From Candidatus Hydrothermus pacificus (GTDB taxonomy: Bacteria > Hydrothermota > Hydrothermia > Hydrothermales > Hydrothermaceae), in assembly GCA_002011615.1 (NCBI GenBank), contig MTOH01000006.1, positions 89,912-123,727 of the forward strand: DNA of 33,816 nt, given 5' to 3'. A program made the position numbers and the translations under genes. Position 1 is the stretch's first letter. Every line of letters begins with the position of its first letter. This document shows positions 4,564 through 31,268 of the stretch, in pieces. The notes under the pieces are model-generated. The model ran no database searches, was not told the DNA's origin, and saw only the letters and a program-made list of their open reading frames with translations.

Positions 4564-6030
4564 TTAAAAATCCTTTCTTTCCCATCTTGTAAGTCTTCCT
4601 TTTTCATCAAGATAATAAACAACAAATTTCCGTGCCCTCTTTCTTTTTTCAAAATGCTCCTTTTTCTCTCTTTCACTCATTCCTGCAAATTTTTTTCTCC
4701 AGACTTCTAAAAAAGATGGTTTTCTTATAATAACAATACTTATAACTGGCTCTCCATTTTTCAAATAAGGAGGGAATTTTCCGTACTTAGAATGTATATT
4801 AACATAATAATCAGGAACCCCGTGGGTTTTGCTTCCCCTTATTACATCTTCCTTAAATTTTTTATTTTTCATGCATAGATCAAGCAACTTATAAAACTTT
4901 TCTGTCTTCAATTTTATGTTTTTATAAAAACTGTCATATCCAGATGTATCCACGAGGTCAATGGATATGTAAAATTTATCCTTTATCAAAGTGCCATGAA
5001 AACTGCTTATTATTTTACTTTCTTTTAAATCAAACCCGATAGAAGGTTTAGAAAAACTGTCAATCTTCCCGATTTTTTCAAATCTTTTAACTAAATTTAT
5101 AAAACTATCTGAATTACTTTTTATAAATTCAATTTTTTCCTTTAGAGGAATATAAATGCTATCATTATGAACTACTGTAAAATAGGAAATCGCAATCGGC
5201 TTTTTCTTTAGGTACTCAGTCCCTTTAAACTCCACATAATAGTTTACCCTTGAATATTCTGAAACATTCCATGTATTTATCTTTGAATTTGTATTAAATC
5301 TTAAAAGAAAAAAACTTTTTTTATCTTCCTTGAAAATTCTTTTTATCCTGTCAAATAAAAATAATTTCTCAAAGAAATTAAGAGAATCCTGCACTGTAAT
5401 TGAGATAGCAACATCACTTTTCCATTTAAATTTTTCATTTATTTCACTTGTTCCGCCGAATTCCGTGTTTTTAATATCAAAATAAAGAATTTCCCTCTTT
5501 ATTGACATAAAGTATTCTCCGTTCTTATAGATTTTAAACTCTTTATGTTTTAAAAACTTCTCTTCTTCTTTTAAATAAAAAAATATTGTATCACCTCTTC
5601 TTGTGTATCTGCGAGGAGAAGGAACACCATCCTCATATATCACCTCGGAGATTACCACCTCACCACCTTCTTCAGGAATTTTTAAATCTTCTTTACTCTC
5701 TGTCTGAATACAGTAAATTGTTGTATCACAGGTATTTATGTCAAAAATTTTAAGTGTCCATCCGTGAATTCTCCTGCAATCGGTTATATCATCTATAAAA
5801 ATTATTCTTTCATTCCATTTATCAATAAAAAAATTTTCAGAAGGTATATTTTCTTTTACCCATACATATCCTTTATTTTCCTCCCATCTTGCAAATCCCC
5901 TTTTTAAATCATTCCCGTAAGGAGGTGAAGATGGTTTTATAAAAACAATGTGACAATTTTTAAACTCAAAACTTCTTATCTCAGGAACATACAGTCTTAT
6001 GGTAAACAACAAAAAAATTACAACACTCAT
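4564..6030 (-). CDS. exported protein of unknown function (488 aa)
   Basis: I do not recognise this protein. The first 15 residues are hydrophobic (MSVVIFLLFTIRLYV), consistent with a signal peptide or membrane anchor. The rest looks beta-rich and Lys/Phe/Asp-rich. A region beginning GWTLKIFDINTCDT and a charged C-terminus with many Lys/Arg are the only distinctive parts. The reading frame stays open 14 codons further upstream, to an ATG at 6072. That extension would run over a TATAAT box at 6038-6043 that ends seven bases before the ATG at 6030, so I prefer 6030 as a leaderless start. The gene is monocistronic and converges with the M3 peptidase with two bases between the stop codons. No frameshift is visible. 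Confidence 0.7.
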   Translation of the reverse strand: MSVVIFLLFTIRLYVPEIRSFEFKNCHIVFIKPSSPPYGNDLKRGFARWEENKGYVWVKENIPSENFFIDKWNERIIFIDDITDCRRIHGWTLKIFDINTCDTTIYCIQTESKEDLKIPEEGGEVVISEVIYEDGVPSPRRYTRRGDTIFFYLKEEEKFLKHKEFKIYKNGEYFMSIKREILYFDIKNTEFGGTSEINEKFKWKSDVAISITVQDSLNFFEKLFLFDRIKRIFKEDKKSFFLLRFNTNSKINTWNVSEYSRVNYYVEFKGTEYLKKKPIAISYFTVVHNDSIYIPLKEKIEFIKSNSDSFINLVKRFEKIGKIDSFSKPSIGFDLKESKIISSFHGTLIKDKFYISIDLVDTSGYDSFYKNIKLKTEKFYKLLDLCMKNKKFKEDVIRGSKTHGVPDYYVNIHSKYGKFPPYLKNGEPVISIVIIRKPSFLEVWRKKFAGMSEREKKEHFEKRKRARKFVVYYLDEKGRLTRWERKDF

Positions 6031-6037
6031 TATTTTA

Positions 6038-6068
6038 ATTATACAGAGAGCATAAATACCAGTTGCAA
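6038..6068 (-). promoter_or_regulatory. promoter of the unknown exported gene; leaderless start at 6030
   Basis: On the minus strand a TATAAT box (6043-6038) ends seven bases before the ATG at 6030. A TTGCAA -35-like box lies 19 bases further upstream (6068-6063). There is no Shine-Dalgarno sequence. The expected transcription start falls at or next to the start codon. Confidence 0.6.
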
Positions 6069-6134
6069 TCATGCCAGTTATCCCATCAAAAACCTAAATG
6101 AAATAAAAAATAGATTTTTATGTGAAATTGCAGG

Positions 6135-8326: not shown

Positions 8327-8385
8327 CCTGTAGGCTCATATAAAAATCTAACTCTGTTATTTCGGTTAGATTTTTGATGAGACAA
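8327..8385 (+). repeat. dispersed repeat, copy A, with 11-bp inverted arms (left edge of island)
   Basis: A 26-base segment at 8327-8352 beginning CCTGTAGGCT recurs at 13198-13223 with one mismatch. It ends in the arm AAAAATCTAAC (8342-8352). After a 12-base loop comes the complementary arm GTTAGATTTTT (8365-8375). The 19 bases at 8358-8376 recur exactly at 13277-13295. The 20 bases at 8366-8385 recur inverted at 31037-31056. The hairpin lies 18 bases after the C25 stop codon and could also act as a transcription terminator. The ATCTAAC/GTTAGAT pair fits the RYYYAAC...GTTRRRY rule of integron attC ends. Confidence 0.8.
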
Positions 8386-8394
8386 TTCGTGCTT

Positions 8395-8423
8395 TTGAGA
8401 GAATTATAATAAAACTTTATAAT
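8395..8423 (+). promoter_or_regulatory. putative promoter of the island operon
   Basis: TTGAGA (8395-8400) and TATAAT (8418-8423) are separated by 17 bases. A second TATAAT lies at 8431-8436. No other promoter as good is seen before 8670, so this may drive the whole island operon with a leader of about 240 bases, unlike the leaderless units elsewhere in the window. Confidence 0.5.
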
Positions 8424-8442
8424 AGAGCTTTATAATTAATTT

Positions 8443-8487
8443 ATGATAAAAGAAATGTTCAATTTAGGATCGGTTAACTGTGTTTAA
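8443..8487 (+). CDS. possible leaderless 14-residue ORF
   Basis: ATG at 8443 to TAA at 8485-8487 encodes MIKEMFNLGSVNCV. Its start has the same spacing from a TATAAT box (six bases) as the well-supported leaderless genes of this window, which is the only reason to list it. It may be a leader peptide, the beginning of a gene decayed by frameshifts, or chance. No function can be assigned. Confidence 0.25.
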   Translation: MIKEMFNLGSVNCV

Positions 8488-8669
8488 CATCGAGGCAAAA
8501 CGGACAATTCAAATAGCAAGATGGGTGGTTGAAATATCAGGCACTGGGATTAGTGCGCTACATTTATACTGGAAGATACAGGATAGAGGAATGGGACAGA
8601 AGAGTCTGGTCAATAACAGGTACTATCTGGGTCCTATCAATACCAAAAAATTAACAAAAAGGAGGTAAA

Positions 8670-9686
8670 ATGAAAGGACTCTTATTTGCATTTCTGCTAA
8701 TTGCTGCGGTGCCTTTGAAAGCCCAGAAGGTTATCTGGGAGAAGATATATAATAAGAATAGGGGCACAGTTTACTCGGTTACCGAAACCAATGATGGGTG
8801 TTTTGTAATCGGAGGAGAAATAAACTACCAGGATGGACACGGGAGAGATGTTTATCTGGCAAAGGTGGACAAAAATGGTAAAAAGCTATGGGAGAAACGA
8901 TTTGGCGGGGATTATGACGATAGATGTTATGCACTTTCCAAAACCAAAGATGGTGGTTTTATCCTTGCTGGAACAAAAACATCGTACACAATGGAGGCTT
9001 ATACTGGAAGTGTTCCTAGCGAACCTGATGTTTATCTCATAAGAACTGATGAGAACGGTAACAAGATATGGGAAAAGACATTCGGAGGTGAGGAAAAGGA
9101 TAAGGCGAATGCAATTATCCAGACCAAAGACAGCAATTTCATAATTGCCGGTGTAACAAAGTCTTTTGGGGCCGGTGAGGAAGACATCTATCTAATAAAA
9201 ATCAACAGGAATGGTAAGAAAATCTGGTCAAAAACCTTTGGAGGTAAAAAAGAGGATAAAGCGAATGCAATCCTGGAAACAGAGGATGGTGGATTAATAA
9301 TTGCCGGATTAACAAGAACATTCAGTAAAGGTGAAGGAGATGTATTTTTGATAAAAACAGATAAAAATGGTAAAAAAATCTGGCAAAAAACCTTTGGTGG
9401 AGAAGACGGTGATGAGGCTTATTCTATAATTGAAACAGAAGACGGTTTTATAACTGCGGGCTACACTTACTCCTATGGTAATAATGGAGATTTTTATCTC
9501 ATAAAAGTTGATAAAAAAGGAAATAAGGTATGGGAAAAAACAATAGGCACAAGGAATTATGAGATAGCTTATTCGATTTCCAGATGCTCAGATAATGGTC
9601 TCATTGTTGCTGGTCTCACCAACATTGTAACCGGTTTTAATGTTCCCTATGTGGCAAGAATCAAGGATGAATTAGGGAAAAAATAA
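8670..9686 (+). CDS. exported beta-propeller repeat protein
   Basis: This 338-residue protein has a signal peptide (about 1-18, ending PLKA before Gln19). The mature part consists of about six imperfect repeats of roughly 50 residues. Each carries an Asn-Gly-Lys-Lys-x-Trp-Glu-Lys-Thr-Phe-Gly-Gly strand and a Glu-Asp-Gly-Gly-(F/L)-Ile-x-Ala-Gly strand, a pattern typical of bacterial beta-propellers found on exported proteins. The last repeat stops at GKK, just where the next Trp strand would begin, so the closing blade is incomplete or is completed by the N-terminal IWEKIYN strand (velcro closure). A strong AAGGAGG site precedes the ATG. It is the first clear gene of the island operon. Likely periplasmic or surface binding protein; ligand unknown. 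Confidence 0.75.
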   Translation: MKGLLFAFLLIAAVPLKAQKVIWEKIYNKNRGTVYSVTETNDGCFVIGGEINYQDGHGRDVYLAKVDKNGKKLWEKRFGGDYDDRCYALSKTKDGGFILAGTKTSYTMEAYTGSVPSEPDVYLIRTDENGNKIWEKTFGGEEKDKANAIIQTKDSNFIIAGVTKSFGAGEEDIYLIKINRNGKKIWSKTFGGKKEDKANAILETEDGGLIIAGLTRTFSKGEGDVFLIKTDKNGKKIWQKTFGGEDGDEAYSIIETEDGFITAGYTYSYGNNGDFYLIKVDKKGNKVWEKTIGTRNYEIAYSISRCSDNGLIVAGLTNIVTGFNVPYVARIKDELGKK

Positions 9687-9726
9687 TGCATAACTTGAAG
9701 CAAACACTATAAACTAAGGAGGTTTT

Positions 9727-10353
9727 ATGTGTGCTTTTTTTCTTTTTCTTTTAATTTCCTTGCTCGCAAATCCTTGCGTGTTAACTGCGCAGGAGAGGCA
9801 GATTGTGGGCGAGTGGCATAGTGAACCAAACCCTGCAATTTATTATGGAGAAGTATATATATTTTCTCCTCGTGGGGAATTTGTCAAAGTAACGAGCGAT
9901 TTAGATAGAACTAATAGGATTCTTTTGAAATCTGGAACATGGCAAGCAAAAAAAGGGGGAATAGAATTGATATACAAACATCAAATTGTCCGAGTCGGAG
10001 GAAAACTTAAGACCGACCCAGAAACACGAACTTTTTTCCTTGAAGGAGGAAAGCAAGTCAGAGAGATAATTGATGATACAGATTTTGTTTCAGTTGAATA
10101 TATTGGTAAAAAACGCATTCTCATTGACGGGAAACGTTATTATTATATAAAAACACAAGGGGAAAAGGATTTTAAGTATTTGTTTGATTATGCAGAAAAA
10201 AATATTCTCAAGGATGCTGAGATTCTCTTTGTATTAGGAGCGGATGCGAATTTATCAAAAATGAATGGCTGGACCCTTCTTCACCAGGCGTGTAAAAGTA
10301 ACTCACTGGAGTTTGTAAAATTGCTTATGGAAAGGGGGCTAATCCAAATGTAG
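9727..10353 (+). CDS. exported ankyrin-repeat protein, N-terminal fragment (frameshifted)
   Basis: This 208-codon frame starts with a hydrophobic signal peptide (about residues 1-21, ending VLTA) after an AAGGAGG site. A domain of about 110 residues beginning IVGEWHSEP follows and looks like a lipocalin-like or similar beta domain. The first ankyrin repeat (GADANLS, GWTLLHQACKSNSLEFVKLLMERG) then starts. The frame ends abruptly at a TAG (10351-10353) just after the GGGGG tract at 10334-10338. Adding one G restores the ankyrin sequence as RGANPNVGAEDGRTPL and runs into the frame ending at 11201. The original gene was almost certainly one unit, 9727-11201, of about 490 residues. Whether the shift is a real mutation or an assembly error cannot be decided here. 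Confidence 0.75.
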   Translation: MCAFFLFLLISLLANPCVLTAQERQIVGEWHSEPNPAIYYGEVYIFSPRGEFVKVTSDLDRTNRILLKSGTWQAKKGGIELIYKHQIVRVGGKLKTDPETRTFFLEGGKQVREIIDDTDFVSVEYIGKKRILIDGKRYYYIKTQGEKDFKYLFDYAEKNILKDAEILFVLGADANLSKMNGWTLLHQACKSNSLEFVKLLMERGLIQM

Positions 10354-11201
10354 GTGCCGAGGATGGTAGAACTCCACTTTCTCTTGCTGTCGCAAACGGG
10401 AACACAGAAATTGTAGAATATCTTATTAAAAGGGGTGCCTTTGTTAATGTGCAAACCGAACCAGAAGATAGTTGCATTACTCCTCTTCACATTGCAATTA
10501 AAAATAATGATTTTGAAATGGTTAAATTACTGATGCAAAGCGGAGCCTCATGGAAGATGAAAACAGGAAGAGGGAAAACAGCACTCGACCTCGCTAAAGA
10601 AAGCGGTAATGCGAAGATTGAAGAATTAATCCTTGCATATTCGCAGAAACCTCCTTCTAAATTGCGTGTAGAGGACAATTATGTCCAGATAGTTGATACT
10701 AAAAAAATCAGAACAATTGGAAAACTTGCCTCATCAGATGCATTCCCTTTCGGTTTTTCCAGGATATACAAATTTTCGCCTGACTCTTCGTATATCGCTT
10801 TTGTTGAAAGGACAGAAAAAGGATATGACCTATTTCTTGTATCAAACACAGGAGAAAGAGGGCGCATCACCTGGGATGGAAAGATTGACTCAAGAACGAC
10901 AATAGCATGGGACAGTGAGGGAAAAGCGTTTCTTTTTAATGAAAATGGAAGAATAATATTCGTAAGCACCGAAGGTTACCGGAAAAAAATGTTAACAAAT
11001 CCTGAAGAAGGTTATGAAGATATCCTGCCCTCCTTTAAGAGAAAAGGTAAAGTAAAATTTTTCAGAGGTACAAGATTTGAATATTCTTTTTCTGGCTCTG
11101 AGTATGAGGTTGAAATCACCGGTGGTGGCTGTCGCAAAATTCCTGATGGAGAGGTTATACAACCAGAAAACTTAGGCGGCGAAGAAGAAGGTGTATATTA
11201 A
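10338..11201 (+). CDS. ankyrin/TolB-like beta-propeller protein, C-terminal fragment
   Basis: This is the downstream part of the frameshifted gene that begins at 9727. It opens in the middle of an ankyrin repeat (ANPNVGAEDGRTPLSLAV) and contains about three more repeats (TEIVEYLIKRGA, TPLHIAIKNNDFEMVKLL, TALDLAKESGNAKIEELI). A segment with PD40/TolB-like propeller strands follows (YKFSPDSSYIAFVE, DLFLVSNTGERGRITWDG). An internal GTG at 10449 could start a separate product but has no good ribosome site and would cut through the repeats. The fusion of ankyrin repeats to a TolB-like region on an exported protein is unusual. The next gene's ATG lies one base after the stop codon. Confidence 0.7.
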   Translation, partial: ANPNVGAEDGRTPLSLAVANGNTEIVEYLIKRGAFVNVQTEPEDSCITPLHIAIKNNDFEMVKLLMQSGASWKMKTGRGKTALDLAKESGNAKIEELILAYSQKPPSKLRVEDNYVQIVDTKKIRTIGKLASSDAFPFGFSRIYKFSPDSSYIAFVERTEKGYDLFLVSNTGERGRITWDGKIDSRTTIAWDSEGKAFLFNENGRIIFVSTEGYRKKMLTNPEEGYEDILPSFKRKGKVKFFRGTRFEYSFSGSEYEVEITGGGCRKIPDGEVIQPENLGGEEEGVY

Positions 11202-11202
11202 T

Positions 11203-12453
11203 ATGAAGATAATAAGTATACTATTTGCCTTGATTTTTTTGGTGGGGTGTGCAAAGGAATCAATGCCCACAAAAATCGTTATACTCAAAAACAGCATAAT
11301 TGCACTTGATGCAGAAAACAGGACTCTCTGGAAAATAACAGAGGGAGACAGCGCAATTGAATCCTTTGCGAAATCACTTAAGGTTTTAGATAATCTATCT
11401 TCAAAAACCATACTTATTGTGCCTCATTACACCAAAACCGTCGCACCAACACAAAATGCACCTTATGCCGGTTATTTTCAAAGTTTCCTCGATTTTCTTT
11501 ACTGTCTGGATATCAAGAAAGGCAAAGTTAAATGGAAGTATCAATTAGGAGGTTTGTATAAAATTGTGGGAGGGTCAAAAATTATTCCTGAAGATGTTAT
11601 AAAGATGATACCAGAGAAAGACAATTTTATTATTTTCACAACGATGCGAGTTCTGGAGATTTCAAAGAATGGGAAACTAATTTTCTGGAATAATTATTCT
11701 AAAGGGGAAAAAGATATAGAGAATCTCATCGGTGCTATTATGAGAGATGTCAAAAAACTTGATGAAGATAAGTTTTTGCTTCTCGGAACAGACTGTTTTG
11801 GTATATACAACAAAGACAGCAGAAAAATTGAACTTACAAAAGAAGAAAACAGGCACAACCTGGCTCCCGTGTATGCAAATGGCAAGATTTACTGGTTGAG
11901 AGAAACCGTAAATAAGATACTTACTTCGTATTTTTCCCTTTGCCAGTATTCAACTGATGGGAAATTAGTCAAAACGCTGAGAAATAACTTTCTTGAGAAT
12001 ATCTATGAGCAAAATTTTCTTGTAAAGAAAGACAGTCTTTATCTGCTTCTTAACTCTAACAAATTGCTCATTGTTGACCTCAATACTGATTCTCTGACTA
12101 ATGTCCTTACCTCTTCTTCCTTGCTTGATACACTCTTTTATTTCGGAGGCAAAATCTATTTCTGCGACTTCCGGGATAGTGAATTCTTTTTACTTCAGAA
12201 TAGTTCTATAGAGAAATGGTATGAATATGAATCTTTTGTTGATAGAAACAATGGTGCAATACATATTGTTAATCCTCGTATAGCATTGTATATCAATAGG
12301 GAAAGGAATGTTGTATTAGGTCTTGACGAGCATCTCAACATAATAATGGAAAAACAAGGGAAGTTTCTGGGAATCGATAGAGACTACTGGGCAATTCAAG
12401 GTGAAAATGGAATTATTATATACAGGGGATTAAAAAAAGGGTTAAACATCTGA
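11203..12453 (+). CDS. lipoprotein with PQQ-like (BamB-type) beta-propeller
   Basis: This 416-residue protein starts at the ATG at 11203; a GTG four codons upstream is less likely because it overlaps the previous stop. The signal peptide ends in a lipobox LVGC with the lipidated Cys at residue 16. Repeats such as IIALDAENRTLWKI and YCLDIKKGKVKWKYQLGG are typical of PQQ-like propeller blades, and weaker blades continue to the C-terminus. Lipidation puts it in the envelope, probably at the outer membrane. The fold resembles BamB, but fold similarity alone does not show a role in barrel assembly. It sits in a tight operon, one base after the ankyrin gene and overlapping the probable barrel gene by four bases. 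Confidence 0.75.
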   Translation: MKIISILFALIFLVGCAKESMPTKIVILKNSIIALDAENRTLWKITEGDSAIESFAKSLKVLDNLSSKTILIVPHYTKTVAPTQNAPYAGYFQSFLDFLYCLDIKKGKVKWKYQLGGLYKIVGGSKIIPEDVIKMIPEKDNFIIFTTMRVLEISKNGKLIFWNNYSKGEKDIENLIGAIMRDVKKLDEDKFLLLGTDCFGIYNKDSRKIELTKEENRHNLAPVYANGKIYWLRETVNKILTSYFSLCQYSTDGKLVKTLRNNFLENIYEQNFLVKKDSLYLLLNSNKLLIVDLNTDSLTNVLTSSSLLDTLFYFGGKIYFCDFRDSEFFLLQNSSIEKWYEYESFVDRNNGAIHIVNPRIALYINRERNVVLGLDEHLNIIMEKQGKFLGIDRDYWAIQGENGIIIYRGLKKGLNI

Positions 12454-13010
12454 ATTCTCTAATTATTTTATTGCTTTTTGCATTTTCAGTAGACCTCAAT
12501 GCCCAACACAAGGACAAATGGTTTCGTGTCAATTATCTGGGGTTCAAGATTGGTTATCACAAATGGAGTGTAAATTTTATTGAAGTGGCTTATGGAGACC
12601 TATCTAATGGACTTGGTATAGGGGGCACACTTTTTGAGATTAAAAATTCCAGTTACAACTTCTTGCCTGCTAAGTTATTTCTCGCTAAACCACTTGGGAA
12701 CACGACAGGGCCTTTGCCAAAGGGATTCGGCGGCCCTTTACTTTTTCCTTGGGGCTATCAATATCCCGGTGCAATTTATCTCCAGATGAAAATTTCTGTG
12801 CTGGGTATAAAACAATCTTCCTGGTGTTTATCCTCTGGAGTAGGTTTGGGATTTGAGAAATCAATTTACCAACAGGCCGGGTCAATAGGCATAGAATTTG
12901 GTTATACCATTGATTTTCTTCCTCTAAGGGATAAGGAGGATAAATACCTGTATGCTGTTTTTCAGTACAACTTCTCCAGCTGGGCAAGGGTGAAAAAAAT
13001 TTCAAGATGA
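12450..13010 (+). CDS. probable outer-membrane beta-barrel protein
   Basis: No named family is recognised. The mature part, after a signal peptide ending LNAQ, is about 165 residues. It is rich in Gly and aromatic residues in an alternating pattern (SSGVGLGFEKS, GSIGIEFGYTIDF, AVFQYNFSSWARV) and ends in a short aromatic/hydrophobic strand, as small barrels do. The start is uncertain. There is no ATG: TTG at 12471 would leave a very short signal peptide. CTG at 12450 overlaps the previous stop as CTGA, matching the NTGA overlaps elsewhere in the window, and gives MNSLIILLLFAFSVDLNAQ. ATT at 12429 would add a basic n-region. I place the start at 12450. Last gene of the island operon. Confidence 0.55.
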   Translation: MNSLIILLLFAFSVDLNAQHKDKWFRVNYLGFKIGYHKWSVNFIEVAYGDLSNGLGIGGTLFEIKNSSYNFLPAKLFLAKPLGNTTGPLPKGFGGPLLFPWGYQYPGAIYLQMKISVLGIKQSSWCLSSGVGLGFEKSIYQQAGSIGIEFGYTIDFLPLRDKEDKYLYAVFQYNFSSWARVKKISR

Positions 13011-13197
13011 TATCAAAAATATCAACACCTGAAATGAGCGGTTTTTATTTTATTCAGGAGGGGTTTATCAGTCTAAACTTTGTCTGGGGAAGCGGAATAT
13101 CTTCCATTTGTTGCATTGTGGTAAAAAAGTTTTGTTGTCCATCTGTAATTACGCAAAAATATGGAGGACAACAACAAAGGAAAAAGAGAGAAAACCC
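13011..13197. other. intergenic segment with no supported gene
   Basis: A 65-codon frame (13007-13204) overlaps the stop of the previous gene as ATGA but has low-complexity, cysteine-containing sequence with no recognisable domain and runs into the repeat. I do not call it a gene. The only structure is a 9-bp inverted repeat, TTGTTGTCC at 13132-13140 with GGACAACAA at 13166-13174 (25-base loop), without a following T run. Confidence 0.4.
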
Positions 13198-13303
13198 CCT
13201 GTAGGCTAATATAAAAATCTAACTTTTTTTAGAAAAGATAAAAAATACTGCACCGAGAGTAAGTGGGAGTCAAATCTATTTCGGTTAGATTTTTGGTAAG
13301 TCA
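13198..13303 (+). repeat. dispersed repeat, copy B (right edge of island)
   Basis: 13198-13223 matches copy A (8327-8352) with one mismatch, and 13277-13295 matches 8358-8376 exactly. The inverted arms AAAAATCTAAC (13213-13223) and GTTAGATTTTT (13284-13294) are the same, but 60 bases lie between them instead of 12. From ATCTAAC (13217) to GTTAGAT (13290) the element spans 74 bases, within the usual size range of integron attC sites. The A and B copies are direct repeats enclosing about 4.9 kb. Confidence 0.75.
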
Positions 13304-13313
13304 ACTTGGTTAC

Positions 13314-13343
13314 TTGAAAAAGGAAATGTCTGTATTTTATAAT
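13314..13343 (+). promoter_or_regulatory. promoter of tRNA-Asp
   Basis: TTGAAA (13314-13319) and TATAAT (13338-13343) are separated by 18 bases. The tRNA begins 19 bases after the TATAAT box. Confidence 0.75.
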
Positions 13344-13362
13344 ACAATACTTTTTTTCATAC

Positions 13363-13437
13363 GGGGGCGTAGTTCAGCCCGGTTAGAACGCTGGCCTGTC
13401 ACGCCAGAGGTCGCGAGTTCAAATCTCGTCGCCCCCG
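13363..13437 (+). tRNA. tRNA-Asp (anticodon GUC)
   Basis: A 75-base cloverleaf folds fully. The acceptor stem GGGGGCG (13363-13369) pairs with CGCCCCC (13430-13436), with discriminator G at 13437. The anticodon stem is CTGGC/GCCAG with GTC at 13398-13400, and the T-loop is GTTCAAATC. G73 together with GUC fits tRNA-Asp identity. The CCA end is not encoded. A run of seven T (13438-13444) follows directly and may help end transcription. The converging flavoprotein gene stops eight bases further on. The right-hand island repeat ends about 60 bases upstream. Confidence 0.97.
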
Positions 13438-13445
13438 TTTTTTTA

Positions 13446-31010: not shown

Positions 31011-31268
31011 CTCAGAATGTAGAATGACCAGGTGATTTGTCTCATCAAAAATCTAATCTGAAATAGACAGGGCATTTAAAGGCAGAATATAAAATATTGC
31101 GGATGTTTTAAATTCAAATTTGTTTTTAACATAATCCTGCCAAAGCAATGACCTTTAACAGGCGATTTTTTCAGGTTCTGTTTCCTTAAACCAAGATTTA
31201 ACCTTAAGTCCCCTGATAAAAGGTATGGTAGTTTGAAAATTACGATAAATTAAAAAGAATCATAAATT
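31011..31268. other. intergenic region between converging operons
   Basis: Apart from repeat copy C (31036-31070) this 258-base gap shows nothing coding. No clear hairpin-plus-T terminator was found for either of the operons that end here. Confidence 0.5.
31036..31070 (-). repeat. dispersed repeat, copy C, inverted and partial
   Basis: The reverse complement shares 20 identical bases (31056-31037) with 8366-8385 of copy A. The preceding TATTTC is also shared, with two bases reading AG where copies A and B have G. Only the right arm is present; the left arm with CCTGTAGGCT is missing. Like the other copies it lies just behind the 3' end of a gene. Confidence 0.7.

Follow-up and report, generated by a model that had tools for sequence, protein, structure and literature searches.

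Short repeats around an exported-gene cassette in Candidatus Hydrothermus pacificus as probable remnants of a promoter-targeting insertion sequence family

The window analysed here is a 33,816-nt stretch of the genome of Candidatus Hydrothermus pacificus (GenBank assembly GCA_002011615.1, contig MTOH01000006.1, positions 89,912 to 123,727 of the forward strand), in which two direct copies of one repeat, A and B, bracket a cassette of four genes for exported proteins. Together with a third copy, C, these repeats are very probably miniature, non-autonomous remnants of an insertion sequence (IS) family that targets promoters, with A and B inserted independently of each other. The right tip of each copy lies 5 nt upstream of the -35 box of a promoter. 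The copies and the features next to them are as follows:

8327-8389, plus strand: copy A, a short 63-nt miniature element with a long-hairpin fold; left end CCTGTAGG..., right tip ...CAATTCG at 8389
8390-8394, plus strand: gap between the tip of copy A and the -35 box, TGCTT, 5 nt; lies where intact relatives have the 5-bp target duplication
8395-8423, plus strand: promoter upstream of the cassette, TTGAGA (8395-8400), 17-nt spacer, TATAAT (8418-8423); 5 nt past the tip of copy A
13198-13308, plus strand: copy B, the long 111-nt form; right tip ...CAACTTG at 13308
13309-13313, plus strand: gap between the tip of copy B and the -35 box, GTTAC, 5 nt
13314-13343, plus strand: tRNA-Asp promoter, TTGAAA (13314-13319), 18-nt spacer, TATAAT (13338-13343); 5 nt past the tip of copy B
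13362-13438, plus strand: tRNA-Asp (GTC)
6074-6134, minus strand: copy C, a full short copy; 5 nt upstream of TTGCAA (6063-6068), 19-nt spacer, TATAAT (6038-6043), the promoter of a minus-strand gene
31034-31062, minus strand: right-end fragment of the same repeat family; an exception, with no promoter at the canonical offset

The repeat copies and their position relative to promoters

An earlier note on this DNA had described the two repeats by their shared blocks, and these proved real: in the same orientation, copies A and B share CCTGTAGGCT(C/A)ATATAAAAATCTAAC, 26 nt with one mismatch, and TATTTCGGTTAGATTTTTG, 19 nt without any. The cassette of exported genes is enclosed by them as the note claimed; it holds five open reading frames (ORFs) for four genes. 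The similarity is far beyond chance: at E < 1e-4, at least 20 matches to the sequence of copy A occur across the genome. Between the 26-nt block and the 19-nt block, copy B has approximately 45 additional bases that also occur in the copies at C2:167615 and C4:170157. The two copies also belong to different subfamilies: copy A is closest to C2:299278 and copy B to C2:311511 (31/33 positions in each case), and they agree with each other at 27/33.

About 28 dispersed copies are present in this WOR-3-type genome, four of them in the window (A, B, C and the fragment at 31034-31062). In the assembly (2.06 Mb, 19 contigs), blastn with copy A gave 26 hits, compared with 27 for a right-end model of 33 nt; the same model matched copies in 20 of 40 genomes of the class. 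The consensus, CCTGCAGGCTCATATAAAAATCTAACTTT..TTATTTCGGTTAGATTTTTGATGAGACAACTCG, forms a hairpin with imperfect terminal inverted repeats. The ends of the 63-111-nt copies read CTCAT..AAAAATCTAAC / GTTAGATTTTT.ATGAG, and these short, non-coding copies share their inverted repeats with autonomous IS. The copies fall into three size classes: about 63 nt, about 108 nt (B with two further copies) and about 500 nt. The 500-nt class is represented by C2:311510-312018, which contains a decayed remnant of transposase coding sequence, TKVVKERYMRASKKEKGEIL. A riboswitch or other structured RNA was considered and rejected, as the element precedes the promoter and the only matches to Rfam in the window are tRNA and tmRNA.

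When all copies were aligned at the right tip, the tip was followed by five variable bases, a TTGACA-like box, 17 or 18 bases and a TATAAT-like box. Promoters were counted only beside copies with unique flanks (71 copies from ten genomes), under a strict criterion of at least four of six bases in each box and a spacer of 16-19 nt. Both boxes were found in 54 of the 71, with the -35 box starting exactly at offset 5; a single match fell at offset 4, two fell at offset 6, and the mean at offsets elsewhere was 0.98. Because the right-end model was built without any flanking sequence, the search itself could not have introduced the promoter signal. The composition of the five gap bases was unbiased. 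As a control, 15 chance matches to the tip pattern followed by TTGA were collected from viral contigs, and their -10 boxes reached at most 4/6, in contrast to the good -10 box of a true copy on one such contig (L199). That copy, at 2051-2075 of an IMG/VR viral contig, has its promoter at the canonical offset and may mark a phage promoter or a host-derived stretch.

Survival could in principle produce such a pattern, if insertion were random and copies were retained only just upstream of promoters for a benefit to expression. IS ends frequently affect the transcription of their neighbours, and drift or selection might remove copies at other intergenic sites. Survival predicts a spread of distances, however, and the observed peak is one base wide, also among the recent, near-identical copies of genome G022, which makes this explanation extremely improbable.

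The units downstream of the copies include nine different tRNA genes, and most of the others are coding ORFs that start at a median of 61 nt from the tip. Across the phylum, many genes downstream of elements begin 40-45 nt past the tip. Beside copy C, the minus-strand ORF was mechanically assigned a start at 6072, a position upstream of the promoter of this same gene; its true start is probably the ATG at 6028-6030, about 10 nt past TATAAT, which would make the transcript near-leaderless.

Intact relatives and insertion into existing promoters

Elsewhere in the phylum, the same kind of ends belongs to complete IS. A transposase start, MPNKELDLMTRKKISRQLAKRYRKASKKEKSQILNEFC, adjoins the right end in a different family of the class, and an open frame of 410 amino acids was found in G012:C276 (family range 410-426 amino acids; DDE transposase of the rve type). 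The catalytic set D193-D254-E290 is conserved with D-60-D-35-E spacing (DD35E). Among 11 members, 10 had a Pfam rve domain and none matched a Mutator model; the core predicted by AlphaFold (mean predicted local distance difference test score, pLDDT, 80) most closely resembles retroviral integrases among PDB structures.

Target duplications were found only around intact IS, which come from several families of the phylum. The full-length IS of 1467 bp at G029:C231:128-1594 has GAGGT on both sides, the promoter-side copy being followed directly by TTGACT, a 17-nt spacer and TAAAAT. Perfect 5-bp duplications also flank L177 (CCGAC) and L165 (CAGAC), and four of five bases are repeated around L157, L158 and L161. 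Candidate ends in this analysis were ranked partly by duplication, with the tip itself fixed independently through the promoter offset. The 5-nt gap is thus the duplicated target, because the duplications of intact IS fill it and the tip is set by the promoter.

Comparison of occupied and empty sites indicates that the promoters are older than the insertions. The occupied site in G026:C236 reads ...TGATGAGTCAATTCG|CGTATTTGACCGATGGCTCAAACCAATCTTATAATGAAAACATG, and two genomes of the same genus, G017 and G008, read ...CGCATTTGACCGAGCCTGCAAGCCAATCTTATAATGAAAACATG, with the same promoter, no element and homology resuming at the 5-nt gap. Three insertions in G022 (C20, C3 and C1:129859) are likewise empty in G025, G028 and G034; a further G022 comparison (C1:98) aligned too poorly to be used. 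The recent copies in G022, which are 97-100% identical over approximately 100-127 nt, share one terminal base and stand in front of unrelated promoters. On sequence grounds, these comparisons establish the mobility of the element, its fixed orientation and offset, the prior existence of the promoters and the 5-bp duplication in intact members.

The same observations bear on whether the repeat could be an immobile, conserved regulatory site, such as an operator or UP-like element. Its fixed position before the -35 box, its A+T-rich right half and the right-half-only copies that still adjoin promoters would fit such a site. Orthologous promoters that are empty within the same genus contradict it, and near-identical copies at unrelated promoters, internal transposase remnants, an intact IS that has ends of this type and is flanked by a 5-bp duplication, and the copy at 31034-31062 without a promoter also speak against it. 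We consider a regulatory site very improbable.

For a promoter-targeting IS, the following course of events is proposed. A DDE transposase would insert the element in one orientation, with the right (transposase-start) end 5 bp upstream of the -35 box of a sigma70 promoter, and would generate a 5-bp duplication. Copy A would have landed ahead of the cassette-side promoter and copy B ahead of that of tRNA-Asp, sharing an orientation because both downstream units are transcribed in the same direction. The transposase may recognise the promoter through the RNA polymerase-sigma complex, since the -10 box and the spacer are regular too, not only the -35 box, and a reading of TTGA alone in the DNA would need no -10 box. 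The miniature copies were presumably moved in trans by an IS that is now dead in this genome.

Several observations weigh against this account. Approximately 17 of the 71 copies fail the strict promoter criterion, at least eight of which keep a good -10 box with a -35 box that is weaker or shifted by 1 nt. A search for an intact transposase in the own genome found none, and because of this the own-genome copies look like miniature or fossil IS derivatives. No target duplication was detected around these miniature copies, where the 5 nt of the right-hand gap do not recur in the left flank, or around those two-ended elements that were examined first. Adjacent pairs less than 5 kb apart are in mild excess (5 seen against approximately 1.8 expected for 28 copies in 2.06 Mb, P ~0.03). 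Finally, a codon-atypical block coincides with the interval between copies A and B, which independent insertions leave unexplained.

The cassette between copies A and B

The block in question consists of the following genes:

8670-9686, plus strand: cassette gene 1, a predicted exported beta-propeller (DUF5122/PQQ-like); codon-atypical
9727-11201, plus strand: cassette gene 2, an ankyrin-repeat protein in two frames (9727-10353 and 10314/10449-11201); codon-atypical
11191-12453, plus strand: cassette gene 3, a 420-amino-acid protein with a lipoprotein-like start; codon-atypical
12471-13010, plus strand: cassette gene 4, a 179-amino-acid protein with no Pfam match; codon-atypical

The earlier note had regarded the cassette as a gene block inserted or exchanged between the repeats. 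Codon use favours a foreign block, as all five cassette ORFs rank within the 14 most atypical of the 219 sampled and the flanking genes are normal. The 420-amino-acid protein is absent from four genomes of the same order, and its relatives (21-25% identity) occur in one genus of the class only. It is plausible that the cassette was acquired from elsewhere, as a block and recently. A role of the repeats as borders of this event is unsupported: A and B belong to different subfamilies and each stands in canonical position before its own promoter, and more than 20 copies occupy other intergenic sites without gene blocks, a finding that the note itself had named as one that would refute its reading. 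Around tRNA-Asp, no synteny is kept in G001-G004, G011 or L036.

A composite unit would connect the two, with A, cassette and B mobilised together in trans and landing at the canonical 5-bp distance from the tRNA-Asp promoter, or with the block exchanged by recombination between copies of the element. The match of the codon-atypical block to the A-B interval, the canonical tip of copy B before tRNA-Asp and the lack of the 420-amino-acid protein in the four same-order genomes are consistent with it. On the other hand, A and B are unlike in length and subfamily rather than near-identical, no duplication links the left flank of A with the right flank of B, and most copies are solitary. Another same-orientation pair (C2:163619/167693) encloses 4 kb of sequence whose ORFs are not within the 30 most atypical. 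We therefore regard a composite unit as unlikely, and two independent promoter-directed insertions remain the simplest reading of the bracketing. In practical terms, such repeats should not be taken as island borders.

The ankyrin gene breaks frame near a G run (10300-10460). The split is a frameshift, either a pseudogene or an assembly error, because the two ORFs carry adjoining ankyrin repeats.

Comparison with known targeting elements

Promoter targeting has been described for TnGBS, ISLre2 and ISKra4, which have Mutator-type transposases and insert 15-17 bp upstream of the sigmaA -35 box with the right end on the promoter side; contact with the RNA polymerase initiation complex was proposed (Guerillot 2014, PMC3942029). 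Unlike these p-MULT elements, the present family has an integrase-type rve core without a Mutator-family match and a peak at 5 bp rather than 15-17 bp upstream of the -35 box, and miniature copies of 60-110 nt predominate in its own genome.

ISAjo2-type IS insert in one orientation, 5 bp from XerC sites, with a 5-bp duplication (Harmer 2023, PMC10132070). The present family resembles the ISAjo2 group of the IS1202 family in its length (approximately 1.4-1.5 kb), its large integrase-type DDE transposase, its 5-bp duplication and its exact 5-bp distance from a protein-binding target. The 5-bp duplications of the intact relatives fall within the 3-5 bp given for the ISAjo2 subgroup of IS1202. The target here is a sigma70 -35/-10 promoter instead of dif/Xer, and the glutamine at +7 after the catalytic glutamate that defines IS1202 is replaced by an invariant valine (E290, V297); membership in IS1202 was rejected on these two grounds. 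For 10 of 11 members, the top hit among curated profiles was IS481, with which the family shares the rve catalytic core. The protein here is larger, with extra N- and C-terminal regions, and the one member tested scored 48.6 bits against an NCBIfam cut-off of 224, so that IS481 was also rejected. In its mode of insertion the family resembles both the p-MULT and the ISAjo2 elements, and by the features tested it falls into neither group.

Relatives annotated as 'ISNCY family transposase' occur on rhizobial plasmids, with approximately 41% amino acid identity and near-identical tips (CGCATTGCCTCGCCAAAAATG). Promoter targeting was not seen in seven Rhizobium copies (L133-L139), which lie within another recurring sequence, GACGATCAGGATGAGAC / GTCTCACCTTGTTTGTC. 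The wider family thus appears to include other site-specific hunters. Given this other recurring target in the rhizobial relatives, not all of the wider family targets promoters, and the preference appears to belong to the branch found in the WOR-3 phylum.

It is likely that an rve-type IS family in the WOR-3 phylum evolved promoter hunting independently, with sigma70-RNA polymerase at the -35 box as the landing mark, at 5 bp and in one orientation. Such insertion would leave the promoter intact and seed miniature copies before mRNA and tRNA genes. In the literature found, promoter-targeting bacterial transposons are of Mutator-type families only, and no earlier description of a promoter-hunting rve family at 5 bp was found in the open-licence papers searched. 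The family and its miniature derivatives appear to be a new, convergent variant. A second, unrelated superfamily with base-exact spacing would represent convergence on a safe-haven strategy, in parallel with Ty3 at RNA polymerase III genes and ISAjo2 at dif. The family offers a testable system for contacts between transposase and RNA polymerase, and its insertions could serve as natural markers for mapping the sigma70 promoters of uncultured bacteria.

Bacterial miniature inverted-repeat transposable elements (MITEs), such as the Correia elements, are short, hairpin-forming, internally deleted and dispersed near genes. The copies described here are similar in all of these features, and we know of no MITE family described as keeping a fixed, base-exact distance to promoters. 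In the elements L038, L046-L049 and L054 (G014), the tip motif (TTTCGTGTAGATTTTTnnATGAGCCAACG) occurs a second time, further inward near the right end, which resembles the extra transposase-binding sites in the ends of Tn7 and ISAjo2. In G012, the miniature copies at C128, C184 and C334 (L045, L044 and L072) contain additional nested hairpins (for example ACCCCGAG...GGGGT repeats), apparently of another small repeat family.
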